From an uncultured Paraprevotella sp. (lineage in GTDB: Bacteria; Bacteroidota; Bacteroidia; Bacteroidales; Bacteroidaceae), in the NCBI GenBank assembly GCA_944321345.1, contig CALUKY010000025.1:1-33880 (forward strand): a DNA stretch of 33,880 nucleotides. Direction: 5' to 3'. The stretch's first letter is position 1. Each line of letters opens with the position of its first letter. The notes below the pieces were generated by a model. It saw only the letters and a list, made by a program, of their open reading frames with translations. It made no database searches and was not told the origin of the DNA. A program made the position numbers and the translations under genes. Shown here piece after piece: positions 6,036 through 33,853 of the stretch.

Positions 6036-7217
6036 ATGTATAAGAATATATTTCTGAAAAAAGGAAAAGAAGAAAGTCTGAAACGCTTTCATCCCTGGAT
6101 CTTCTCCGGGGCAATACATCATATTGAAGGAGAACCGGAAGAAGGTGAGGTGGTACGGGTACTGTCGTCCGACGGAACATTCCTGGCTGTAGGCCATTGG
6201 CAGATCGGATCCATTACGGTACGCGTATTGTCTTTTTCCGATATAGAAATTGATGCGGCCTTTTGGGAAGAAAGAATCAGGGTGGCCTATGAGATGCGTT
6301 GCGCCATTGGCGTTGCCGGGGTAGAGCAGAACAATACCTATCGTCTGATTCATGGTGAGGGGGATTGCTTGCCGGGACTGGTTGTGGATATTTATGGAAA
6401 GACTGCCGTGATGCAGGCGCATAGTGTCGGAATGCACGTAGACCGGATGGCCATTGCGGATGCTTTGTTGAGCCAGACTAAGGGAGCCGTGGAGCATGTA
6501 TATTATAAGAGTGAAACCACGCTTCCGTTTAAGGCAAATCTGGGCCAGGAGAATGGCTTCATCCGTGGAGGAAGTGCGGACAATATAGCTGTGGAAAATG
6601 GTTTGAAATTCCATATTGACTGGCTGAAGGGCCAAAAGACCGGCTTTTTTGTCGATCAGCGTGACAATCGTTCTCTGCTGGAGCACTATGCGCATGGCCG
6701 TGCTCTTTTGAATATGTTTTGTTATACCGGTGGATTCAGTGTCTATGCCATGAGAGGCGGGGCTCGGCTGGTTCATTCGGTAGACAGTTCGGCCAAGGCG
6801 GTAGATCTGGTAAATAAGAATATCGAATTGAACTTCCCGGGAGATTCCCGTCATCAGGCTTTTGCCGAAGACGCGTTCAAATATCTGGATGCCATGGGAG
6901 ATCAGTATGATCTGATCATTCTTGATCCTCCGGCCTTTGCCAAGCACAAGGATTCTCTGAAGCAGGCACTGAAGGGATATACCCGTTTGAATGCAAAAGC
7001 TTTTGAGAAAATTCAGCCCGGCGGCATTCTGTTTACCTTCAGCTGTTCGCAGGTGGTAAGTAAAGATAATTTCCGTACGGCGGTGTTCAGTGCGGCGGCG
7101 CAGAGTGGCAGACGTGTGCGTATTTTACATCAGCTTCACCAGCCTGCAGATCACCCGATAAATATCTATCATCCTGAGGGTGAGTATCTTAAGGGACTCG
7201 TGCTTTATGTGGAGTGA
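6036..7217 (+). CDS. rlmI: Class I SAM-dependent rRNA methyltransferase, RlmI-like
   Basis: A 393-residue protein matching the RlmI/RlmK-N-like m5C methyltransferase family. Residues 1 to about 80 form a PUA RNA-binding domain (GKEESLKRFHPWIFSGAI). A linker domain follows, then a Rossmann methyltransferase domain with the motif I region MFCYTGGFSVYA, motif IV DPPAF (297-301) and the SCS motif with Cys337 (336-338). E. coli RlmI makes m5C1962 in 23S rRNA; the exact target here is inferred. It starts 13 nt after the exonuclease gene. No terminator follows immediately; the first downstream hairpin with a T-run is at 7344-7374. Confidence 0.88.
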   Translation: MYKNIFLKKGKEESLKRFHPWIFSGAIHHIEGEPEEGEVVRVLSSDGTFLAVGHWQIGSITVRVLSFSDIEIDAAFWEERIRVAYEMRCAIGVAGVEQNNTYRLIHGEGDCLPGLVVDIYGKTAVMQAHSVGMHVDRMAIADALLSQTKGAVEHVYYKSETTLPFKANLGQENGFIRGGSADNIAVENGLKFHIDWLKGQKTGFFVDQRDNRSLLEHYAHGRALLNMFCYTGGFSVYAMRGGARLVHSVDSSAKAVDLVNKNIELNFPGDSRHQAFAEDAFKYLDAMGDQYDLIILDPPAFAKHKDSLKQALKGYTRLNAKAFEKIQPGGILFTFSCSQVVSKDNFRTAVFSAAAQSGRRVRILHQLHQPADHPINIYHPEGEYLKGLVLYVE

Positions 7218-7268
7218 TTTTAATAATGATAATAATTGAAAATGTAAGTTAAAACTCAAGATTATTTA

Positions 7269-7298
7269 TTGCTAATTCCAAGAAAAACTCTACCTTTG
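7269..7298 (+). promoter_or_regulatory. Strong Bacteroidetes promoter driving a short transcript
   Basis: TTG (7269-7271), 19-nt spacer, TACCTTTG (7291-7298): a near-ideal match. The predicted start is near 7304. No coding start follows before the terminator at 7344-7374. Confidence 0.8.
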
Positions 7299-7303
7299 CA
7301 TTG

Positions 7304-7374
7304 TGTTTTTCATGGTATTAGATTTAAGGTTAACGAAAAGATTGGTTGTCGAGATGACAACCTTCTTTTTTTTT
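7304..7374 (+). ncRNA. Candidate small RNA or attenuating leader (about 70 nt)
   Basis: The stretch between a consensus promoter and an intrinsic terminator contains no credible ORF. It includes the AT-rich segment GTATTAGATTTAAGGTTAAC and ends in the terminator hairpin. I believe this kind of GGTATTAGATTTAAGG segment recurs near promoters in Bacteroides genomes, but I cannot verify that here. It could be a stand-alone sRNA, or a leader whose terminator gates transcription of the permease operon starting at 7511. Confidence 0.55.
7344..7374 (+). terminator. Intrinsic terminator
   Basis: GGTTGTC (7344-7350), loop GAGAT, GACAACC (7356-7362), then TTC and nine Ts to 7374. A perfect 7-bp stem with a long T-run. 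Confidence 0.85.
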
Positions 7375-7462
7375 ATACACCTGCCTGTCTGAAGCAAATC
7401 CGAAAAGCATAATGCCATTTTATATTTTTGTGGTTAAAAGTCGTATAATCAAAAAACTTTTT

Positions 7463-7470
7463 TAATTTTG
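7463..7470 (+). promoter_or_regulatory. Candidate -7 element of the permease operon
   Basis: TAATTTTG matches TAnnTTTG, 40 nt before the permease ATG. A second match, TATTTTTG, lies at 7423-7430. Neither has a clear TTTG at 19-21 nt upstream. Confidence 0.45.
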
Positions 7471-7510
7471 CAGTTTATAACTATTGTTTTATCGCAAAAA
7501 TAAGAAGGCT

Positions 7511-8782
7511 ATGAGTTTAAAGGTTAGACTGACGATTATGAACTTTCTGGAGTTCGCCGTATGGGGGGCTTATCTGACTTCTATGGGAACTTACCTGGCT
7601 CGGGTTGGCCAGGCTGAAAATATAGGTTGGTTTTATTCTATCCAGGGAATTGTTTCTTTGTTTATGCCGGCTCTTATCGGAATTATTGCCGACCGCTGGA
7701 TTCAAGGACAGAAACTTTTGGGTATCTGCCATATTCTGGCCGGAGCATTTATGCTGGCGGCGTCATATTATGGAATGCAGACAGGAGAATCTGTTTCTTT
7801 TCCAGTCCTGTTTTCCTTGTATACGCTGAGTGTAGCCTTCTTTATGCCTACCATCGCATTGTCAAATTCCGTGGCCTATTCCATTTTGGATCGTGCCGGT
7901 ATGGATACCGTGAAGCATTTTCCGCCGATCCGCGTATTTGGAACCGTAGGATTCATATGCTCCATGTGGGTGGTTGATCTCGGGGGAATGCAGCAAACCG
8001 CTTTGCAGTTTGCCTTTTCCGGTATTTTGAGCTTTATTCTCGCCCTTTATGTATTCACTTTGCCGGAATGTCCGGTAAACCGGGAGGGAGAAACAAAAAG
8101 TTTGTCAGAAGCATTGGGTCTGCAGGCTTTTCGTTTGTTCAAGGTTAAGAAAATGGCCGTTTTCTTTATCTTTTCCATGATGTTGGGTATCTGTTTGCAG
8201 ATTACCAACGGTTTTGCCAATCCGTTTATTTCTTCCTTTGCTCAGATTCCTGAATATGCGGATACTTTCGGAGTGCAGCATGCCAATATCCTGATATCTT
8301 TGTCGCAGATGAGCGAAACGCTGTGTATTTTGCTGATACCTTTCTTTTTGCACCGTTTTGGCATTAAGGTCGTTATGCTGATGGCTATGGTTGCCTGGGT
8401 GTTGCGCTTTGCCTTTTTTGCCATGGGAGATCCCGGAAGCGGAGTATGGCTCTTTGTACTTTCCATGATCGTTTATGGAGTGGCCTTTGACTTCTTCAAT
8501 GTATCCGGTTCTTTATTTGTTGACAAGGAAACCGATGTTCATGTACGTAGCAGCGCACAGGGGTTGTTCATGGTGATGACCAATGGTCTGGGAGCTACCA
8601 TCGGTACTTTGGCGGCTCAGGAAGTCATCAATGTATATGTATATAATCTGAAGGATGCTACCGGGCAGCAGATTGCTGAAGGATGGAGCACCTGCTGGTA
8701 TATCTTTGCCGCTTATGCACTGGTTGTGGCAATTTTGTTTGCTGTAGTTTTCCGCTACAAGCACGATCCGGAAAAATTATAA
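7511..8782 (+). CDS. Nucleoside permease, MFS (NupG/XapB-like nucleoside:H+ symporter)
   Basis: A 423-residue polytopic inner-membrane protein with about 12 hydrophobic segments. It aligns by eye with E. coli NupG: the opening LKVRLTIMNFLEFAVWGAYL, the MPALIGIIADRW loop (52-63) and the signature FPPIRVFGTVGF (137-148) are all shared. The expected role is proton-coupled nucleoside uptake. The ATG at 7511 was chosen because AAGAAGG lies just upstream (about 7502-7508); an upstream extension would need a TTG. It is the first gene of a plus-strand run, ending 4 nt before the bifunctional-nuclease gene. Confidence 0.9.
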   Translation: MSLKVRLTIMNFLEFAVWGAYLTSMGTYLARVGQAENIGWFYSIQGIVSLFMPALIGIIADRWIQGQKLLGICHILAGAFMLAASYYGMQTGESVSFPVLFSLYTLSVAFFMPTIALSNSVAYSILDRAGMDTVKHFPPIRVFGTVGFICSMWVVDLGGMQQTALQFAFSGILSFILALYVFTLPECPVNREGETKSLSEALGLQAFRLFKVKKMAVFFIFSMMLGICLQITNGFANPFISSFAQIPEYADTFGVQHANILISLSQMSETLCILLIPFFLHRFGIKVVMLMAMVAWVLRFAFFAMGDPGSGVWLFVLSMIVYGVAFDFFNVSGSLFVDKETDVHVRSSAQGLFMVMTNGLGATIGTLAAQEVINVYVYNLKDATGQQIAEGWSTCWYIFAAYALVVAILFAVVFRYKHDPEKL

Positions 8783-8786
8783 GATC

Positions 8787-9356
8787 ATGGAAGAGCATAC
8801 AGATCAATCGTATAAGTATTTACAGGTAACCAATGTTTCACAGTGCTCTAAAGAAGGCAATGCCTATTTGGCCATTCTGAAGGAGACTGACGGTGAACGG
8901 ATGCTTCCGGTGTTGATGGAGCGGCAGGATGCTTTGCTTTTGCTCCTGAAGATGAAAAAAGTATTTATCGCCTCTACACCGATTGATTTTTCAGATATTA
9001 TGCTGGGATGCTTCAACAGTTTCTCCATACGTTTGCGTGAAGTGAGAATTTGCGCTGTGAGAGGGGGCATCACTTATTGTCATCTGTTTTGTGAGCAATA
9101 TGGCGAGCGGAAAATCATATCGTATTGCCGGGCGTCTAATGGTTTGGTCTTGGCCGCTACGTTCAAGTGCCCGATTACCATTCATGAAGAGCTCCTGAAG
9201 CTGCAGTATATGCGTGAAGTGGCCGACGGTACTTATTCCATGCCGATTAACTCCGTCAATAAGGAGGCGTTGGAGGAGGCCTTGAAGCGTGCCATAGAAA
9301 CTGAAAATTATGAATTGGCTTCTTTATTAAGAGATGAAATACAACGACGAAAATGA
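8787..9356 (+). CDS. Bifunctional nuclease family protein (DUF151) with C-terminal UVR motif
   Basis: A 189-residue protein. Residues about 8-140 fit the bifunctional nuclease (BFN/DUF151) domain: the ILKETDGERMLPVLMERQDA strand-loop and a central beta-rich core. The tail (about 160-189, EALKRAIETENYELASLLRD) is a UVR motif, the short helical hairpin used by UvrB, UvrC and Clp adaptors to bind partners. BFN proteins have been described as RNases/DNases in plants and in T. maritima; activity here is inferred. Its stop overlaps the rsmE start (ATGA at 9353-9356), indicating translational coupling. Confidence 0.85.
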   Translation: MEEHTDQSYKYLQVTNVSQCSKEGNAYLAILKETDGERMLPVLMERQDALLLLLKMKKVFIASTPIDFSDIMLGCFNSFSIRLREVRICAVRGGITYCHLFCEQYGERKIISYCRASNGLVLAATFKCPITIHEELLKLQYMREVADGTYSMPINSVNKEALEEALKRAIETENYELASLLRDEIQRRK

Positions 9357-10120
9357 AAGAGGTACGTTTTTTTTATGTTCCCGATGCGGCCGTTGCCGGA
9401 CAGTTGCCTGATGAAGAGGCACAACATTGCATCCGCGTATTGCGCTTGCAACCGGGGGATGAAATGATGCTGATGGATGGCCAGGGTACTTTTTATCGGG
9501 CGCAGATTGTCAGTGTACAGGCTAAAAAATGCTTTTATCAGATTGTTGCCACGGAACCGCAGGCAAAAGAGTGGAAGGGATGGCTGCATCTGGCTATGGC
9601 TCCGACCAAAAATATGGACCGGGTGGAATGGTTGGCCGAGAAGGCAACGGAAATAGGTTTTGACGAGTTGTCTTTCCTGAATTGCAAAAATTCAGAGCGC
9701 AAGGTCATTAAAACGGAACGGGTCGATAAGATCCTGATTTCGGCAGTCAAGCAAAGTCGGAAAAGCTGTAAGCCGGTATTGCATGAGATGACGGATTTCA
9801 AGAAGTTTGTTCAATCTGTGAGCCATTATGAACAGAAGTTTATCGCCCATTGTCATGACGAGCGTGAGGTCGATGGAGAACAGACTGAGAGTCAGGAAGA
9901 AGAGGATATGAACTACGGAAAGCCCAAATTGTATGATATACTGCAACCGGACAAGAAAACGGTGGTTCTGATCGGACCGGAAGGAGATTTTTCTCTGGAA
10001 GAGGTACGTTTGGCCTTGCAACAGGGATTTACACCGATATCATTAGGGAAAAGTCGTTTGCGTACTGAAACGGCAGCCTTGGTGGCTGTGCAGATGATGC
10101 AGATGAAAAATGATTATTAA
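9353..10120 (+). CDS. rsmE: 16S rRNA (uracil-1498-N3)-methyltransferase
   Basis: A 255-residue SPOUT-fold methyltransferase with an N-terminal PUA-like domain (1 to about 70) and a C-terminal knotted SAM-binding domain. The signatures GPEGDFS (208-214) and LGKSRLRTETAAL (231-243) identify RsmE, which makes m3U1498 in 16S rRNA. An acidic, probably disordered insertion (about 168-188, rich in Glu, Asp and Gln) separates the methyltransferase strands and makes the protein slightly longer than most RsmE proteins. The start overlaps the previous stop by 4 nt. Confidence 0.93.
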   Translation: MKEVRFFYVPDAAVAGQLPDEEAQHCIRVLRLQPGDEMMLMDGQGTFYRAQIVSVQAKKCFYQIVATEPQAKEWKGWLHLAMAPTKNMDRVEWLAEKATEIGFDELSFLNCKNSERKVIKTERVDKILISAVKQSRKSCKPVLHEMTDFKKFVQSVSHYEQKFIAHCHDEREVDGEQTESQEEEDMNYGKPKLYDILQPDKKTVVLIGPEGDFSLEEVRLALQQGFTPISLGKSRLRTETAALVAVQMMQMKNDY

Positions 10121-10142
10121 CTAACTTAAAATTAATGCCGTT

Positions 10143-11609
10143 ATGAAAAAACAATGGATTATTGGAATCGTCGCATGTGTCATTGTCGTGTTGGCTGTAT
10201 GGCTTTTATGGCCAAAGAATCAGGCATCTCATGCCCGTGTGATACCGGCCGATGCTACGGCTTTGTTGGAGTTTGATGTCAATGAATTTGTTCAGGAGAG
10301 TGGGCTGACAGAGGAAAAGATGAGGGAAATGCTTCCGGAAGGAGTGGATCTGTCTGCCTCTGGCATTGATATGAAGAAAAATGCTTATGTCTTTGTGGAT
10401 GCTTCCGGAATGAACGGACTTTTGCTGGCTGTGGATGATGTGGATCAGCTTAAGGAGTTTATGGTCAAAAATGCGGAACAGATGCAGTTTGCTCCGATCG
10501 AGGAACAGCAGGGATACAACTGGACTTCTCTGGGAAATTCTTTGGTGGTGGGATTCGACAGTGAGGTGCTTCTGGTAATGGGGCCTTCTATCGCGTCTGC
10601 CCAGGCTGAATTGCGTCAGCATATGCTAGGATATTTCAAGCAGGACAAGGATGAAAGTGTCTTGAAAGCCCCGATATATAAAACATTGCAGAAACAGGAT
10701 GGTTTGCTGAAGGCTGTCGCTTCGCTGGAACTGTTTCCGGAATATTATAAGATGCTGGAAAATATGGGCTTGCCCGAGCATGTGGATTTCAGTAAAATGC
10801 AGATGTTCATGTCTTTGGTTTCCGAGAATGGAAAGATTGTTCTTCAATCCGGTGTGCAGACAGACGACAAGACGCTGGCTCAGAAGATGAAAGCCATTGA
10901 CGATATGATCAGACCGATAGACGGTGATTTCGTTTCTTCTGTGGTTCCGAATGCCCTGTTCTGGCTGGGTGCCAATGTTGAGGGAGAGAAACTGATGAAG
11001 ATCATGAGCGAGATTCCTGCCCTGCGCCTGTATCTGATGGCGATGAATAATGTCATGGATGTGGAGAAGATGATCAAGCAGATTGACGGAGACATTTCTA
11101 TGTCGGCTGCCATGAACATGAAGGAGGCTCCGGTGCTTCAGATGCAGATGCATATGGAGGGTTTGTCTTTTATGGACGATGTGGATTATTGGATTTCTTC
11201 GGCAAAACGCTCCGGAAATTATCAGTTTGAACGCATTGACGAGGATCTGTACCGCATCGGAAATCTGGCTCCGATGGATATCTATTTCGGATTGAAAGAC
11301 AAGAATGTGTTGCTTTCTTCCAACCGTGCGGCAATGGACCGCCTGCAGAAAGGAGAGGACAATGATTTGCTGGAACCATATGTATCGGATATCAAAGACA
11401 GCAAGTTCTATGCCTGGACCAACATGGCAACATTCCTGGTTATGCTTCAGGCAGAGCTGGGTACTACCGGAAATCCGTATCAGGCACAGTTTGAAAAGAT
11501 GCTCGGTAAATTTAATGCCATAGCTTTAAGATCGAAAAACGCCACTTCCATCGATCTGATTTTTTACCTGAAAGAGAATAAGAGTGGACTGAAACAATTG
11601 TTTGAATAA
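10143..11609 (+). CDS. Membrane-anchored hypothetical protein, DUF4836-like
   Basis: A 488-residue protein with one N-terminal hydrophobic segment (about residues 4-24, IIGIVACVIVVLAVWLLWP) that is either a signal anchor or an uncleaved signal peptide, since no lipobox or AxA site is evident. The rest appears exported. The opening of the mature part (HARVIPADATALLEFDVNEF) and the overall pattern resemble Bacteroidetes DUF4836 proteins, a family without known function. It starts 22 nt after rsmE, and its stop overlaps the ABC ATPase start by one base (TAATG), so it is probably translated together with the transporter and may serve it. No catalytic motif is recognised. Confidence 0.75.
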   Translation: MKKQWIIGIVACVIVVLAVWLLWPKNQASHARVIPADATALLEFDVNEFVQESGLTEEKMREMLPEGVDLSASGIDMKKNAYVFVDASGMNGLLLAVDDVDQLKEFMVKNAEQMQFAPIEEQQGYNWTSLGNSLVVGFDSEVLLVMGPSIASAQAELRQHMLGYFKQDKDESVLKAPIYKTLQKQDGLLKAVASLELFPEYYKMLENMGLPEHVDFSKMQMFMSLVSENGKIVLQSGVQTDDKTLAQKMKAIDDMIRPIDGDFVSSVVPNALFWLGANVEGEKLMKIMSEIPALRLYLMAMNNVMDVEKMIKQIDGDISMSAAMNMKEAPVLQMQMHMEGLSFMDDVDYWISSAKRSGNYQFERIDEDLYRIGNLAPMDIYFGLKDKNVLLSSNRAAMDRLQKGEDNDLLEPYVSDIKDSKFYAWTNMATFLVMLQAELGTTGNPYQAQFEKMLGKFNAIALRSKNATSIDLIFYLKENKSGLKQLFE

Positions 11610-12253
11610 TGGAAAATATAACGCTGAAGAATGTCTTGCCCGAAGTTTTTGCTTCGCGCAATGACATTCAGAGTGAAATCTGGCACAAGGAGGTCTTGCT
11701 GGAAAAAGGAAAAGTCTATTTGGTTGAGGCTAATTCCGGAACCGGCAAGTCCTCCCTGTGTAGCTATATTGCCGGATATCGCAGAGATTATCAGGGAATT
11801 ATTGATTTTGACGGAAAAAATATCTGTAATTTGCGTATTGCCGACTGGGCCCGTTTGCGTCGGGAATCGCTCAGTATCCTGTTTCAGGAGTTGCGTCTGT
11901 TTCCTGAACTGACGGCTTATGAGAATGTCAGTATCAAGAACGGACTGACCCATTTCAAGTCGAAAAAAGAAATTCTGGCCTGGTTTGAGGCTTTGGGTAT
12001 TGCAGACAAGGTAGATGCCAAAGTGGGACTGATGAGTTTCGGACAGCAGCAGCGTGTGGCGATGATCCGCGCTTTGGTGCAGCCGTTTGATTTTCTGCTG
12101 GCCGATGAACCGATCAGTCATTTGGATGAAAGGAACAGTGCGGTTATGGCCGAACTGATGCTGGAAGAGGCACGCCGCCAGGGAGCAGGTATTATTGTGA
12201 CCAGTATCGGAAAACACATGGATTTAAATTACGATAAAGTATTCAAATTATGA
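11609..12253 (+). CDS. ABC transporter ATP-binding protein (LolD/MacB/FtsE-like)
   Basis: A 214-residue single ATPase domain. It shows a Walker A ANSGTGKSS (41-49, first Gly replaced by Ala), a Q-loop LFQELRLFPE (91-100), the signature MSFGQQQR (142-149, in place of LSGGQ) and Walker B FLLADE (162-167, catalytic Glu167). The switch His is not obvious: the expected TH reads TS (VTSIGKH). The size and neighbouring FtsX-like permease place it in the LolD/MacB/FtsE group that powers lipoprotein release or mechanotransmission rather than solute flux. The start overlaps the previous stop and its own stop overlaps the permease start (ATGA), so the pair is translationally coupled. Confidence 0.88.
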   Translation: MENITLKNVLPEVFASRNDIQSEIWHKEVLLEKGKVYLVEANSGTGKSSLCSYIAGYRRDYQGIIDFDGKNICNLRIADWARLRRESLSILFQELRLFPELTAYENVSIKNGLTHFKSKKEILAWFEALGIADKVDAKVGLMSFGQQQRVAMIRALVQPFDFLLADEPISHLDERNSAVMAELMLEEARRQGAGIIVTSIGKHMDLNYDKVFKL

Positions 12254-13458
12254 ATTTGGTTTGGAAATTGTTACGTCAGCATATCAGTAAGCCACAGTTG
12301 GCCGGTTTCTTCTTTGCCAACCTTTTGGGAATGCTGATTGTGTTGCTGAGTCTGCAGTTTTATAATGATGTGGTACCGGTTTTTACTCAGGGCGACAGTT
12401 TTATAAAAAAGGAATTTCTTATTGTGTCGAAACGTATTTCCGTGGCTCATTCTTTTTCATCGTCGGCAACAGCCTTTAAAGAGGATGAAATCGAGGAGAT
12501 GAAAGAACAGCGTTTTACCAAATCGGTCGGACAGTTCTGTTCCAGCCAGTATCATGTGGATGCCAGTATGGGCATGGCCGGTGCTCCGTCATTACGTACG
12601 GAGCTGTTTTTTGAATCTGTGCCCGATGATTTTGTAGACACCGATCTGTCCCAATGGCATTTTGATCCCGAAAAGGCTGTGATTCCCATTATATTACCGA
12701 AAAACTATCTGACCATTTATAATTTTGGTTTTGCCCAAAGCCGTGCGTTGCCTAAATTGTCAGAAGGAGTCATTGGCGCCATTGATCTTATGATCCGTAT
12801 CCGCGGTAACGGCAAGGAGGATTATTATAAAGGTAAGGTGATCGGTTTCAGTACACGCCTGAATACGATATTGGTGCCGGAAGCTTTTTTGAAATGGAGT
12901 AATGCGGAGTATGCTCCGGATGCCGATACGGCACCGTCGCGTCTGATTGTCGAGGTGAAGAATCCTACCGATGATGCCATAGCTACCTATTTCAAGAAAA
13001 AGAATTACGAAACGGATGACGATAAGCTGGATGCCGGAAAAACGACATTCTTCCTGAAAATGGTTTCGGGCATTATCATGAGTGTCGGTCTGCTGATCAG
13101 TGCACTGTCGTTTTATATTCTGATGCTGAGTATTTATCTGCTGGTAGAAAAGAATACTCATAAGCTGGAAAACCTGCTTCTGATCGGATATACTCCACAG
13201 CGGGTGTCTTTCCCTTATCAGGCATTGACGGTAGGAATGAATGCACTGGTTTTGCTGCTGTCCTTGCTTCTTTTGTTTTGGATCCGTTCATATTATATGG
13301 ATATGCTTTATCAGATATTCCCTCAGATGACCGAAGGAAGCATGTGGCCTGCCTATCTGTTGGGCGGAATGCTGTTTCTGGGAGTCAGTGTGATCAATGT
13401 ATGGGCGGTCCGTCAAAAAGTAATTGCAATCTGGTATAGAAAAGGAGTAAGGTTATGA
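12250..13458 (+). CDS. ABC transporter permease, FtsX/MacB-like
   Basis: A 402-residue inner-membrane protein with the MacB/LolCE-type layout: one N-terminal helix (about 18-38), a large periplasmic domain (about 45-265), then three C-terminal helices (about 275-300, 325-345 and 362-385). It pairs with the ATPase gene that it overlaps by 4 nt; presumably two copies assemble with two ATPases. The cargo is unknown, but neighbours acting on cell-wall sugars and an exported upstream protein fit an envelope role. It overlaps the next gene by 4 nt (ATGA at 13455). Confidence 0.85.
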   Translation: MNLVWKLLRQHISKPQLAGFFFANLLGMLIVLLSLQFYNDVVPVFTQGDSFIKKEFLIVSKRISVAHSFSSSATAFKEDEIEEMKEQRFTKSVGQFCSSQYHVDASMGMAGAPSLRTELFFESVPDDFVDTDLSQWHFDPEKAVIPIILPKNYLTIYNFGFAQSRALPKLSEGVIGAIDLMIRIRGNGKEDYYKGKVIGFSTRLNTILVPEAFLKWSNAEYAPDADTAPSRLIVEVKNPTDDAIATYFKKKNYETDDDKLDAGKTTFFLKMVSGIIMSVGLLISALSFYILMLSIYLLVEKNTHKLENLLLIGYTPQRVSFPYQALTVGMNALVLLLSLLLLFWIRSYYMDMLYQIFPQMTEGSMWPAYLLGGMLFLGVSVINVWAVRQKVIAIWYRKGVRL

Positions 13459-14948
13459 TCAAACTGATGGCTTTATATAAAAAGTGGAAAGGAGAAGAGC
13501 CGAAACGTGTGGAGGCTTTGGCTGGAGCCGGAAGCAACCGGAAATATTATCGTTTTTATGATGCTCAGGAACACACGGTCATAGGAGTTGTCGGTACTTC
13601 GACGGAAGAGAACCGTACTTTCATCTATTTAAGTGCCTTTTTTCGGGAACAGGGTGTTTCTGTGCCGGAAATTCTGGCGCAGGACGATCTGTGCGAGTGC
13701 TATTTGCAGACCGATCTGGGGCAGGTAAGCCTGTATGCGGCTTTGGCCGAAGGGCGGAAAAGCGGACATTACAGCGAATCGGAATGTGCTTTGTTGAAAC
13801 GGACATTGCGTGAACTTCCCAAACTTCAGTACAGTGCCCGTCGGGGAATGGATTTTTCCCGTTGCTACCCTTTGGAGGAAATGAACCGTGAGGCGGTGAT
13901 GTTCGATTTGAATTATTTCAAGTATTGCTTCCTGAAAGCCAGCGGTATTGAATTTCATGAGATGAAGCTTGAAGAAGACTTTCAGGCTTTGGCTTCCGAT
14001 TTGCTGCAGGAATCCTCGGATACCTTTTTGTATCGTGACTTTCAGGCCCGAAATGTGATGCTGGATCCGGACGGGAATCCTTGTTTTATCGATTATCAGG
14101 GGGGGCGGAAAGGGCCCCGTGAATACGATGTGGCCAGTTTTCTGTGGCAGGCTTCGGCCCATTATTCATCGCAGTTGCGTGAAGAGTTGATAGCATGCTA
14201 TCTGGAAGCTTTGCAGGCCTACGATTCGGTAAATCCGGATCATTTCCGCAAGCGCCTGAATCTGTTTGTGTTCTTCCGTACGCTGCAGGTATTGGGAGCC
14301 TATGGATTGCGTGGTTATTGCGAGCGTAAACAATACTTTATTGACAGTATTCCGTTTGCTCTGGAAAACCTGCGTGAATTGCTGGAACAGGGCATTTGTA
14401 CCTATCCTTATCTGAAACAGGTGCTTGAGACGCTGGTTCATGCTCCCCGTTTCCAGACAGAGAAGGAAAGTACTCAGGTTACGTCCGCGCCCGACCGTCC
14501 GACACCGGTTGTCGCAGAAAAGGGACAGCCGGTATTGCAGGTCGATGTCCTGAGTTTTTCTTACCGTAAGGGAATACCCGAAGATCCTTCAGGCAATGGC
14601 GGAGGGTATGTGTTTGACTGCCGTGCGGTGCACAATCCCGGAAAATATGAACCTTATAAAAAGTTGACCGGTCTGGATGAGCCGGTGATCCGTTTTCTGG
14701 AAGAAGACGGAGAGATCCTGACATTCCTGGAGCATGTCTATGCACTGGCCGATGCTCATGTAGAGCGCTATCTGCAACGTGGATTTACGCATCTGATGTT
14801 TTGTTTCGGATGTACCGGCGGACAGCATCGCAGTGTCTATTCCGCCCAGCATCTGGCAGTTCATCTTCACGAAAAATATGGAATAGAAGTGATTGTGAAT
14901 CATCGTGAACAGGCGATTCAGACAATCTTTCACGCAAAAAACAGATAA
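13455..14948 (+). CDS. Fusion: AmgK-like sugar kinase + RapZ C-terminal domain
   Basis: A 497-residue two-domain protein. Residues 1 to about 330 form an aminoglycoside-phosphotransferase-fold kinase closest by pattern to AmgK (anomeric MurNAc/GlcNAc kinase): nucleotide loop GAGSNRKYYR (24-33), catalytic loop YRDFQARN (193-200, Asp195 and Asn200) and metal site FIDYQGGRKGPREYDVASF (211-229, Asp213). A Pro/Thr/Glu-rich linker (about 332-358) leads to a domain (about 360-485) matching the RapZ C-terminus: DVLSFSYRKGIP (364-375), YVFDCR (385-390) and GCTGGQHRSVY (452-462). In E. coli RapZ this domain binds glucosamine-6-phosphate and the sRNA GlmZ; the RapZ P-loop half is absent here. The MurU-like gene starts 2 nt downstream, supporting a role in amino-sugar salvage. 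The sensing role is inference. Confidence 0.85.
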   Translation: MIKLMALYKKWKGEEPKRVEALAGAGSNRKYYRFYDAQEHTVIGVVGTSTEENRTFIYLSAFFREQGVSVPEILAQDDLCECYLQTDLGQVSLYAALAEGRKSGHYSESECALLKRTLRELPKLQYSARRGMDFSRCYPLEEMNREAVMFDLNYFKYCFLKASGIEFHEMKLEEDFQALASDLLQESSDTFLYRDFQARNVMLDPDGNPCFIDYQGGRKGPREYDVASFLWQASAHYSSQLREELIACYLEALQAYDSVNPDHFRKRLNLFVFFRTLQVLGAYGLRGYCERKQYFIDSIPFALENLRELLEQGICTYPYLKQVLETLVHAPRFQTEKESTQVTSAPDRPTPVVAEKGQPVLQVDVLSFSYRKGIPEDPSGNGGGYVFDCRAVHNPGKYEPYKKLTGLDEPVIRFLEEDGEILTFLEHVYALADAHVERYLQRGFTHLMFCFGCTGGQHRSVYSAQHLAVHLHEKYGIEVIVNHREQAIQTIFHAKNR

Positions 14949-14950
14949 AT

Positions 14951-15685
14951 ATGAAAGCCATGATCTTTGCAGCGGGCCTGGGTACGCGCTTGCGCCCGCT
15001 GACCGACCGGATTCCCAAGGCGCTCATACCGGTGGGAGGAACTCCGTTACTTGATCTTTTGATTCGCCGGCTTTCGGTAGCCGGAGCTACGGATATCGTC
15101 ATCAATGTGCATCATCACGCCGATATGATGAAGCGGCATATTCATTCCCTGCAGGGAGAAGGACCGCGTTTATGGATCAGTGACGAGACCGATGCCCTGC
15201 TGGATACCGGTGGGGGAATCCGGAAAGCGGCCGCTTTTTTTGAAAAGGATGAGGAACCGTTTCTGGTGCACAATGTGGATATTCTTTCGAACGTGCAACT
15301 GGATGCTTTTTTTGAGCAGGGAAAGGCTTTTGATGCGGCGTTGCTGGTTAGCGAACGCTCTACGTTCCGTTACCTGCTTTTTGATGCGTCCGGAAGGTTG
15401 TGTGGATGGATCAATGAGAAAACCGGAGAGATCAAGTCGCCTTATCCGGATCTGGAACCCGCTTCCTGCCGTAAACTGGCCTTTTCCGGAATCCATACCT
15501 TTTCGCCCGGTCTTTTTCCGTTATTTGACGGATGGCCCGATAAATTCTCGATTATCGACTTCTACCTTTCGGTGTGCGACAAGGTGCATATCCAAGGTAT
15601 TTGTCAGCCAGACCTGAAACTTATGGATATCGGAAAGCCTGAAACTCTTCCTTTGGCAGGAGATTTCTTGAAGGGCATCATTTGA
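14951..15685 (+). CDS. Sugar-1-phosphate nucleotidyltransferase, MurU-like
   Basis: A 244-residue nucleotidyltransferase with the family signature AAGLGTRLRPLTD at 7-19 followed by PKALIPVGG (22-30), and the catalytic-metal region VHNVDIL (about 105-111). Length and pattern fit MurU (MurNAc-1-phosphate uridylyltransferase), which with AmgK converts recycled MurNAc to UDP-MurNAc, bypassing de novo synthesis and fosfomycin inhibition in Pseudomonas. Coupling to the AmgK-like fusion 2 nt upstream makes this the leading call. A mannose-1-P or glucose-1-P transferase remains possible. It is the last gene of the run; the guaA promoter overlaps its stop codon. Confidence 0.82.
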   Translation: MKAMIFAAGLGTRLRPLTDRIPKALIPVGGTPLLDLLIRRLSVAGATDIVINVHHHADMMKRHIHSLQGEGPRLWISDETDALLDTGGGIRKAAAFFEKDEEPFLVHNVDILSNVQLDAFFEQGKAFDAALLVSERSTFRYLLFDASGRLCGWINEKTGEIKSPYPDLEPASCRKLAFSGIHTFSPGLFPLFDGWPDKFSIIDFYLSVCDKVHIQGICQPDLKLMDIGKPETLPLAGDFLKGII

Positions 15686-32908: not shown

Positions 32909-33730
32909 TTAGCCGTTTTTGCCTTCGCTCCATATTTTGTCATAAAAGTCGGCATAGGCATCGGCATAATCTTCACCCGGATAGTTCAGGACAGGAATCT
33001 GGTTGGCCCGGGCATATTCCTCAAAGTTTTTGTTGGCTCCCTCGCTGGCCATAATCAGTCCGTCGGCATATTTCACGGCCAGTTTGTTCAGCTCTTCGAA
33101 GGTAAATTCCTTGCTGAACTCACTCAATACAGAGGCATCTACATCCTTAAAGGCGATGCAGTTTCCGAAGTTGCTGCCCAGATTCTGTTTCAGTTCGTCC
33201 TGATGCAGGGCGTAAACCACTTTGGAATCGCAGAAAGAAGGTTCGTCCTTATAGGCTGTCTTGATATACAGCGGTACAAGGGCCGACATCCATCCCTGGC
33301 AGTGGATCACATCCGGTGTCCAGCGCAGTTTCTTGACGGTTTCCAGCACGCCTCGTGCATAGAAGATGGCTCTTTCTCCGTTGTCTTCATATTCCTGGCC
33401 CTCTTCGTCGGTAGCCATTTGTCTTTTCATGAAATAGTCATCATTGTCAATGAAGTATACCTGCATTCTTGCTGCCTGAATGGAAGCCACCTTGATGATC
33501 AGCGGGTGATCGGTGTCATCGATAATCAGATTCATTCCCGACAGGCGGATCACCTCATGCAACTGGTTGCGGCGTTCGTTGATATTGCCCCATTTAGGCA
33601 TGAAGGTTCTGATTTCGCGTCCTTTTTCCTGGATGCTTTGTGGTAGTTTGCGTCCCATGACCGACAGTTCGGTTTCCGGAACATAAGGTACGATTTCTTG
33701 TGTTATAAATAAGATCTTTTTCGCCTCCAT
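32909..33730 (-). CDS. Single-domain GT5-like (glycogen/starch synthase N-terminal domain) protein
   Basis: A 273-residue protein counted from the ATG at 33728-33730. It resembles only the N-terminal half of GT5 glycogen synthases: KKILFITQEIVPYVPETELS (4-23), LPQSIQEKGREIRTFMPKWG (29-48), and a WTPDVIHCQGWMSALVPLYI segment matching the usual PDVxHxHDW region. The second GT-B domain that binds ADP-glucose is missing; the ORF ends with a stop and the DUF4270 gene follows normally, so it is not obviously a recent truncation. The K-x-G-G motif is replaced by PETELS (18-23). It therefore probably binds glucan or a partner rather than acting alone. A group II intron ends about 24 nt upstream. Confidence 0.82.
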   Translation of the reverse strand: MEAKKILFITQEIVPYVPETELSVMGRKLPQSIQEKGREIRTFMPKWGNINERRNQLHEVIRLSGMNLIIDDTDHPLIIKVASIQAARMQVYFIDNDDYFMKRQMATDEEGQEYEDNGERAIFYARGVLETVKKLRWTPDVIHCQGWMSALVPLYIKTAYKDEPSFCDSKVVYALHQDELKQNLGSNFGNCIAFKDVDASVLSEFSKEFTFEELNKLAVKYADGLIMASEGANKNFEEYARANQIPVLNYPGEDYADAYADFYDKIWSEGKNG

Positions 33731-33752
33731 GGTTTCTTTATAAATATTTGTT

Positions 33753-33790
33753 ATGTAGGTCAGCGGCATTGCTGCCGCTTTCCCCATTAA
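33753..33790 (-). other. Group II intron domain VI and 3' splice site
   Basis: Immediately after domain V on the minus strand, GGGGAAAGCGGCAGCAATGC (33785-33766) begins a hairpin AGCGGCA/TGCCGCT with loop GCAA. It is followed by GACCTAC ending at 33755, with an unpaired A (33760) as the branch-point candidate. The intron probably ends at CTAC (33755) or CTACAT (33753). Confidence 0.8.
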
Positions 33791-33824
33791 GAACTGTACG
33801 TGTGATTTTCACCGCATACAGCTC
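33791..33824 (-). mobile_element. Group II intron domain V (3' part of an intron extending past the window)
   Basis: The minus strand reads GAGCTGTATG, CGGTGAAAATC, ACACGTACAGTTC in order: 34 nt with the AGC catalytic triad, a GAAA tetraloop and the CACGTAC return strand. GAGCTGTATG pairs with CGTACAGTTC over 10 bp. This is the diagnostic catalytic domain of group II self-splicing introns, retroelements that move with an intron-encoded reverse transcriptase. The body of the intron lies beyond position 33880. Confidence 0.9.
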
Positions 33825-33853
33825 CGATAATTCTAAATTTAATTCTCATAAAA

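Follow-up and report, generated by a model that had tools for sequence, protein, structure and literature searches.

The window analysed here, 33,880 nt of a contig (CALUKY010000025.1) from an uncultured Paraprevotella sp., carries a gene whose product joins an AmgK-like sugar kinase to the C-terminal domain (CTD) of RapZ, and 2 nt beyond it (14949-14950) a gene for a MurU-like transferase (Table 1). As a protein of two domains with a MurU-like gene beside it, the fusion is conserved in Bacteroidota, and it cannot be put down to chance, since the same architecture was found in 27 of the 36 CTD genes among 296 genomes of the phylum. We are highly confident of the three identities (AmgK-like kinase, RapZ CTD and MurU-like gene). 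A first-pass annotation of this DNA had proposed all three, naming two kinase motifs, the resemblance of the C-terminus to RapZ and the 2-nt distance to the MurU-like gene, and on each of these points our searches agree with it.

Table 1. Features of the fusion locus, with positions in the window.
Feature	Position	Strand	Remarks
Gene for the fusion of AmgK-like kinase and RapZ CTD	13455..14948	+	ATG start, 497 aa; open reading frame (ORF) list, Pfam, NCBIfam, PDB search
Kinase part, residues 1-337, APH/AmgK-like fold	13455..14465	+	Pfam APH and Foldseek best match 3csv
Kinase motif YRDFQARN, residues 193-200 (D195, N200)	14031..14054	+	R194, D195, F196, Q197, N200 invariant in 53/53
Presumed metal-binding motif IDYQGGRKGPREYD, residues 212-225 (D213)	14088..14129	+	I212, D213, Q215, G216, G220, Y224, D225 invariant in 53/53
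Disordered linker, residues 338-356	14466..14522	+	pLDDT <50 in full-length model
RapZ CTD (PF22740), residues 362-486	14538..14912	+	Pfam, CTD model, fold search
NPGK, residues 394-397; G396 at the position of E. coli RapZ H190	14634..14645	+	Alignment with E. coli RapZ
CX5R(S) anion-binding loop CTGGQHRS, residues 453-460	14811..14834	+	C453 = E. coli C247, R459 = R253
MurU-like sugar-1-phosphate uridylyltransferase gene, 244 aa	14951..15685	+	NCBIfam, PDB search
ABC ATPase and 402-aa membrane protein genes, directly upstream of the fusion	11609..13458	+	ORF list, domain searches

In the fusion protein Pfam recognises the kinase by the APH family PF01636 (residues 19-258; E = 9.3e-15, 55.5 bits against a cut-off of 23.2) and the CTD by PF22740 (E = 3.6e-32, 111.5 bits against a cut-off of 27), and a sequence search of the PDB returned 3csv, an APH-family protein, together with E. 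coli RapZ (5o5s). The predicted structure of the full-length protein (mean predicted local distance difference test score, pLDDT, 92.4; predicted template modelling score, pTM, 0.70) places the start of the CTD near residue 361, beyond the low-confidence linker. Modelled in isolation (pLDDT 94.2), the CTD matches the crystal structure of the E. coli RapZ CTD (5o5s) with a template modelling (TM) score of 0.91 over the target and 33% identity, which is the outcome of the structural check that had been suggested for the RapZ assignment. The RapZ equivalog model NF003828 gives the protein 93.6 bits, under its cut-off of 244. The N-terminal P-loop half of RapZ (PF03668), which the first-pass annotation had called missing, indeed has no match in the fusion protein or in the source assembly (2.90 Mb in 78 contigs, 91% complete), where the RapZ CTD occurs once.

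The best solved structural match of the full-length model and of its kinase part is again 3csv (Foldseek, TMt 0.73). Both kinase motifs named in the first-pass annotation are present; going by the APH family, D195 and N200 would be the catalytic residues and D213 the metal-binding aspartate, and all three are invariant in 53 of 53 sequences. With an APH-type fold and murU as the gene neighbour, these residues speak for AmgK, yet the NCBIfam AmgK models score 66.7 bits (NF045759, cut-off 550) and 27.1 bits (NF045698, cut-off 500), and because both scores lie under the equivalog cut-offs we use the name AmgK-like. Going by its family, the kinase half would make N-acetylmuramic acid (MurNAc) 1-phosphate and perhaps N-acetylglucosamine (GlcNAc) 1-phosphate too. 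The neighbouring protein is likewise called MurU-like because it scores under the curated MurU cut-offs (111 bits against 370 for NF045697, 106.8 bits against 250 for NF045761). In the PDB it matches 4y7t, 'Nucleotidyl transferase', best (E = 3.7e-17) and next 8hhd, 'N-acetylmuramate alpha-1-phosphate uridylyltransferase' (E = 1.6e-13), and as a member of this family it probably makes UDP-MurNAc. MurB is present in the source genome, so UDP-MurNAc is presumably also made de novo there. The gene context supports the cell-wall-sugar salvage role suggested earlier.

In E. coli RapZ, sulphate or malonate is held in a pocket formed by H190, T248, G249, H252 and R253, with C247 nearby (PMC5737377, PMC9841335). 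The counterparts of the five pocket residues in the window CTD are G396, T454, G455, H458 and R459; four of the five (T, G, H and R) are kept and H190 is replaced by glycine, as it is in all 47 aligned CTDs and in all 36 CTDs found by hidden Markov model (HMM). This glycine lies in the motif NPG[KR], which is present in 47/47 aligned and 35/36 HMM-found CTDs (the exception, at locus L018, reads NPGQ) and whose last residue, at position 397, is one of these two bases, Lys or Arg, throughout the 47. D388, R390, N394, P395, G396, D408 and H483 are also invariant in the aligned set, and by alignment the window CTD keeps the counterparts of E. coli R184 (= R390), N188, P189, G200 and D202, while K170 corresponds to R371, a position held by lysine or arginine in all but one of the 47.

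Cysteine phosphatases (PTP superfamily, CX5R(S/T)) carry the signature pattern C-X5-R-S. In the CTD this pattern is part of the loop CTGG[QR]HRS, found in 36/36 HMM-found CTDs, and C453, T454, G455, G456, H458, R459 and S460 are invariant in 53/53 sequences. The CTD model shows a strand ending at the loop cysteine and a helix starting at the arginine, that is, a strand-loop-helix turn. When the window CTD was shuffled 20000 times, a C-X5-R-[ST] motif arose by chance in 219 cases, so that the motif is modest evidence when taken by itself; more weight falls on its invariance and its position. Our claim of loop conservation rests on the 36 HMM-found CTDs, the named loci L031-L110 having been found by peptide patterns that include the loop.

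A further difference from E. coli RapZ lies at the C-terminus. The basic RNA-binding tail of the E. coli protein (K270, K281, R282, K283) is not conserved, nor are the RapZ-quad residues on which RNA binding depends in E. coli: K270 aligns with I477, and past H483, where the alignment was extended by eye, no K/R cluster is seen in the window CTD or in nine separate CTDs. The last 19 residues of E. coli RapZ hold eight K/R, a number that none of 102 sequences reaches (maximum 7), although this count is partly circular, as the sequences were picked by the loop pattern; one of its rows is a false loop hit, and six separate CTDs of family f4 failed its other filters.

The 296 genomes, which include the source genome, were also used to follow the architecture of the CTD. 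Of the 36 CTDs, 27 are fused to the kinase and nine are separate genes; thirty were examined as loci (the 27 fusions, of 475-513 aa, and three separate genes), the remaining six being separate too. For seven of the nine separate genes (L111, L114-L119) the gene order is kinase > CTD > murU, with all three on the same strand. Within genus g60 both arrangements occur, genome G124 (= L013) having the fusion and G031 (locus L111) a version split by an in-frame stop and a new ATG. A scan of named genomes found at least 584 relatives, making the fusion family common in Bacteroidales. The best 80 of these (at least 584) relatives, used as named loci, include Prevotella, Bacteroides, Parabacteroides, Phocaeicola, Tannerella and Muribaculum as well as Carboxylicivirga, Saprospirales, Ignavibacteria and Calditrichia; murU lies directly downstream in 56 of the 80 and elsewhere in the locus in six, was not found in 16, and in two the contig was too short. 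A Tannerella sp. metagenome-assembled genome (L070) has the fusion with an adjoining MurU-like gene. At locus L113 (6773-8493, minus strand) a separate RapZ-CTD gene is followed after 32 nt by a gene for an MFS transporter without an NCBIfam match. Neither half of RapZ was matched in the control Bacillus subtilis despite the published RapZ homologue YvcJ, which is perhaps due to a gap or mask in the control.

AnmK turns anhydro-MurNAc into MurNAc 6-phosphate (MurNAc-6-P; PMC7670621), which is then either cleaved by MurQ or dephosphorylated, the latter by MupP in Pseudomonas (PMC5371407). Four profiles (CTD, AnmK, MurQ and kinase) were crossed over the same 296 genomes. MurQ was counted as present at E <1e-50, a threshold set by a gap in the E-values (between 3e-51, the weakest match accepted, and 5.5e-12, the strongest one left out), with weaker matches taken as other SIS proteins; this gives 211 genomes with MurQ, seven of them under the TIGR00274 cut-off that 204 of the 296 exceed. 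One AnmK match in a genome with the CTD is weak (G216, 1.2e-10). Twelve genomes, from six families, have AnmK without MurQ, and all twelve carry both kinase and CTD. The 195 genomes with both AnmK and MurQ divide into 13 with the CTD, all with the kinase, and 182 without it, all lacking the kinase; MurQ without AnmK is found in three genomes with CTD and kinase and in 13 with neither. Where AnmK and MurQ are both absent, eight genomes have kinase and CTD, 64 have the kinase without the CTD and one has neither. No genome among the 296 has AnmK while lacking both MurQ and the CTD, and among genomes with the kinase the CTD is present in 25/25 of those with AnmK and in 11/75 of those without.

The 64 genomes with kinase and without CTD comprise 63 of family f17 and genome G009, none with AnmK or MurQ. 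G009 has, beside murU, a kinase that belongs to the same family (C44:46089-47791; E = 1.2e-108), making this a natural comparison genome. The kinase of family f17 is more distant, and CTD, AnmK and MurQ are lacking in 63/63; in one of its genomes (G169, C2:109034-110709) a MurU-like gene lies beside the kinase in what is apparently a different salvage layout.

MurNAc-6-P could also arise from kinases other than AnmK. Nine of the 11 genomes with CTD and without AnmK encode a PF01869 kinase roughly 300 aa long (E no worse than 7.7e-24) and one a MurK-type kinase, so that a candidate 6-kinase was found in 35 of the 36 CTD genomes (25 AnmK, 9 PF01869, 1 MurK-type); a comparably strong PF01869 kinase occurs in 2/25 of the CTD genomes that have AnmK (G132, G216). 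The MurK-type kinase, of genome G230, matches PDB entry 8ow9, 'Putative novel MurNAc kinase', at E = 6.5e-110 (best match 1zxo, 1.2e-110), and one PF01869 kinase (L125) matches 8zo3, 'N-acetylmuramic acid/N-acetylglucosamine kinase', at 1.1e-37. The L125 gene is followed by genes of the AmpG-family transporter and GH3/beta-lactamase families (locus L132). This locus (6707-11764, plus strand), in a genome with the CTD and without AnmK or MurQ, is likely a wall-recycling operon consisting of the MurNAc/GlcNAc-type kinase, the AmpG-family transporter (TIGR00901, 8.8e-54, under the cut-off) and a GH3 - beta-lactamase-family fusion. Among 11 of the 64 genomes with kinase and without CTD that were tested for PF01869, one had a full-length match (G024) and three had partial matches.

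From the co-occurrence and the motif we propose, with a probability of about 0.5, that the CTD is a putative cysteine phosphatase for MurNAc-6-P that substitutes for MupP and feeds AmgK and MurU. MurNAc-6-P would arise through AnmK or a MurK-type kinase, its 6-phosphate would be bound by the CX5R(S) loop and attacked by the loop cysteine, and the freed MurNAc would be handed to the kinase half, so that one protein could take MurNAc-6-P to MurNAc-1-P. More speculatively, the change of H190 to glycine followed by Lys or Arg may leave space for the lactyl carboxylate of MurNAc and pair with it. We consider a phosphatase the simplest account because of the gene linkage and order, the separability of the domain, the invariant Cys, His and Arg and the AnmK/MurQ pattern. 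A wider version, which we hold a little more tentatively, is that RapZ CTDs form a putative family of cysteine-dependent amino-sugar-6-phosphate phosphatases, with the Bacteroidota member built into or between AmgK and MurU and E. coli RapZ a relative whose active site has turned sensor and RNA adaptor.

Published work on RapZ has a bearing on this proposal. The C247A and C247S variants of the E. coli protein are inactive, its authors suggesting a catalytic role of the SH group, and 'transformed' glucosamine-6-phosphate (GlcN6P) is described in RapZ crystals (PMC9841335). NTPase and phosphatase activities have been reported for YvcJ of B. subtilis (PMC7525490), and the RNA-binding tail of RapZ is reported to be limited to Enterobacteriaceae (PMC7073468). 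Because of the C247 variants, the YvcJ activities and the lack of conservation in the tail, we regard a chemical role of the CTD as somewhat stronger, and the RNA-linked control put forward by the first-pass annotation as weaker. An RNA link was set aside as the leading explanation, with tail and H190 not conserved and the N-terminal half missing.

A number of observations weigh against a phosphatase. The invariant loop could merely bind a ligand, and the inactivity of the C247 and pocket variants of E. coli RapZ could be explained by loss of GlmZ binding alone, those of them tested in pull-downs having lost it too (PMC9841335); the phosphatase activity of YvcJ may belong to its P-loop half. 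Cysteine phosphatases of the CX5R(S/T) type share C-X5-R-S at a strand-to-helix turn with the CTD, but no tyrosine phosphatase or PTP-like fold appeared among the best 50 of the 253 matches of the fold search, in which E <0.001 was reached by RapZ chains only. Two separate CTD genes, L112 and L113, adjoin neither kinase nor murU. AnmK alone, tried as a predictor of the CTD, is not enriched (25/36 genomes with the CTD against 182/260 without), and it becomes informative only when taken together with MurQ and the kinase. The co-occurrence counts ignore kinship: 63 of the 64 genomes with kinase and without CTD fall in one family (f17), which points to few evolutionary events, and six of the 12 genomes with AnmK and without MurQ belong to family f4. 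In the source genome, 91% complete, neither AnmK, MurQ nor a PF01869 kinase was found, nor any other candidate 6-kinase, and we saw no source of MurNAc-6-P there.

The contrast in candidate 6-kinases between genomes with the CTD (35 of 36) and those with the kinase but no CTD (1 of the 11 tested) is also weakened by the following. PF01869 matches at 1e-20 or better also occur in all 13 genomes with MurQ but neither AnmK nor CTD, and in 11 of 28 sampled from the 182 with AnmK and MurQ but no CTD. PF01869 is only a weak match for MurK-type kinases such as the one in G230, the check by PDB match covering G230 and G012, and the PF01869 and MurK-type kinases may act on GlcNAc. Moreover, a MurNAc 6-kinase paired with a MurNAc-6-P phosphatase would form a futile cycle unless controlled, and an HAD-type MupP-like enzyme may be encoded elsewhere.

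Proteins in which a sensor is joined to an enzyme are common, and the CTD may instead be an allosteric sensor through which GlcN-6-P, GlcNAc-6-P or MurNAc-6-P tunes the kinase up or down, in cis or by contact, with an HAD phosphatase elsewhere where one is needed. We judge this possible and clearly less probable than the phosphatase. The isolated E. coli RapZ CTD binds GlcN6P with a dissociation constant (KD) of 10 nM (PMC7073468), four of the five pocket residues are kept, and HAD proteins of the phosphoglycolate-phosphatase type (TIGR01449, matches with E of at most 1e-15) are present in 39 of the 43 genomes tested, although that model is broad and none of them reaches its cut-off. The GlcN6P sensing suggested in the first-pass annotation may hold in an altered form, H190, whose replacement in H190A inactivates E. 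coli RapZ (PMC9841335), being Gly in 36/36 HMM-found CTDs. A sensor would also leave the genome pattern (12/12 with AnmK and without MurQ carrying the CTD; 64 with kinase and without CTD lacking AnmK and MurQ) unexplained unless another phosphatase exists, and removal of phosphate from MurNAc-6-P fits that pattern at least as well. The inactivity of C247S hints at chemistry, and a diffusible enzyme agrees somewhat better with the unlinked CTD genes L112 and L113.

That the CTD serves mainly to dimerise the enzyme or to channel MurNAc from one enzyme to another, and has no role that depends on a ligand, strikes us as improbable. The RapZ CTD is a dimer for which F181A and D182A were studied as dimer-breaking changes (PMC5737377), and the corresponding F387 and D388 are invariant here; such a role, however, would not need the invariance of C453, H458 and R459 (53/53), and a separately encoded CTD cannot dimerise the kinase in cis. 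Least probable by a wide measure is that the fused CTD binds RNA and ties amino-sugar level to post-transcriptional control. In its favour, the E. coli CTD by itself suffices for RNA binding (PMC5737377), the pocket and C247 that GlmZ binding needs are kept here except for H190, and some RNA-facing basic residues are retained (R390 invariant; K or R at the R371 position in 46/47). Against it, the basic tail is absent and none of the 102 sequences reaches the eight K/R of E. coli, H190A abolishes E. coli activity and the histidine is Gly here, and the N-terminal half is missing although presentation of GlmZ to RNase E needs both RapZ domains (PMC9841335). The GlmY and GlmZ families were not found at Rfam cut-offs in the window, the rest of the genome not having been searched.

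Upstream of the fusion, the gene for the 402-aa membrane-type protein (12250-13458, plus strand), which has no match in Pfam or NCBIfam, shares 4 nt (ATGA) with the fusion gene, and from this overlap cotranscription of the upstream pair with the fusion gene is likely. The ABC/membrane pair is directly upstream of the fusion in six of the 80 named loci (L031, L048, L055, L064, L075 and L077), and in a clustering of the neighbourhoods no gene family apart from the fusion and murU occurred in more than 11 loci. The window also contains a FopS small RNA of Bacteroidetes (7303-7375, plus strand; Rfam RF04319, 83.7 bits), a short way upstream of the gene for a nucleoside:H+ symporter (7484-8782), which is the first of the gene run reaching the fusion. 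At the window end a group II intron match (33750-33826, minus strand; RF00029, 47.1 bits) partly overlaps a starch-synthase-like reading frame (32909-33787, minus strand).

Should the CTD prove to be a phosphatase, it would supply the step still lacking from the anabolic recycling of MurNAc in Bacteroidota and be a second, unrelated solution for the MupP step. It would also explain in chemical terms why RapZ C247S unexpectedly loses its function and what lies behind the 'transformed' GlcN6P (PMC9841335), and would hint that RapZ itself has a hidden chemical activity. Should it be a sensor, it would put a wall-salvage kinase under direct metabolite control, of which we found no report in the literature searched. 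An AmgK/MurU route in Bacteroidota has already been proposed for Tannerella forsythia (PMC7670621, PMC5790795); for a RapZ domain fused to AmgK or intervening between it and MurU, no report was found in searches, judged partly by title, that left most subscription papers outside, and none of the papers covered names both AmgK and RapZ.

Several known systems resemble the one described here. The MurNAc salvage of T. forsythia, catabolic through MurK and MurQ and anabolic through AmgK and MurU, belongs to the same phylum and pathway, and its accounts, in their available text, mention no RapZ domain on AmgK (PMC7670621, PMC5790795, PMC10465942). E. coli RapZ has the fold and the CX5R(S) loop in common with the fusion CTD, whereas the fusion lacks the P-loop half and the basic tail, has glycine followed by Lys or Arg in place of H190, and has a sugar kinase as its partner. 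In the AmgK-MurU-MupP pathways of Pseudomonas (PMC5371407, PMC5371409) and Caulobacter (PMC13046382) kinase and transferase adjoin as they do here. As in Caulobacter, whose tabulated enzymes are AnmK, AmgK, MurU and MupP without MurQ (PMC13046382), AnmK is often present and MurQ absent. The CTD has the RapZ fold and not the HAD fold, and the equivalence with MupP that we propose is functional only: in Pseudomonas and Caulobacter MupP is a separate HAD phosphatase, whereas in Bacteroidota a RapZ CTD is fused to the kinase or placed between the kinase and MurU.

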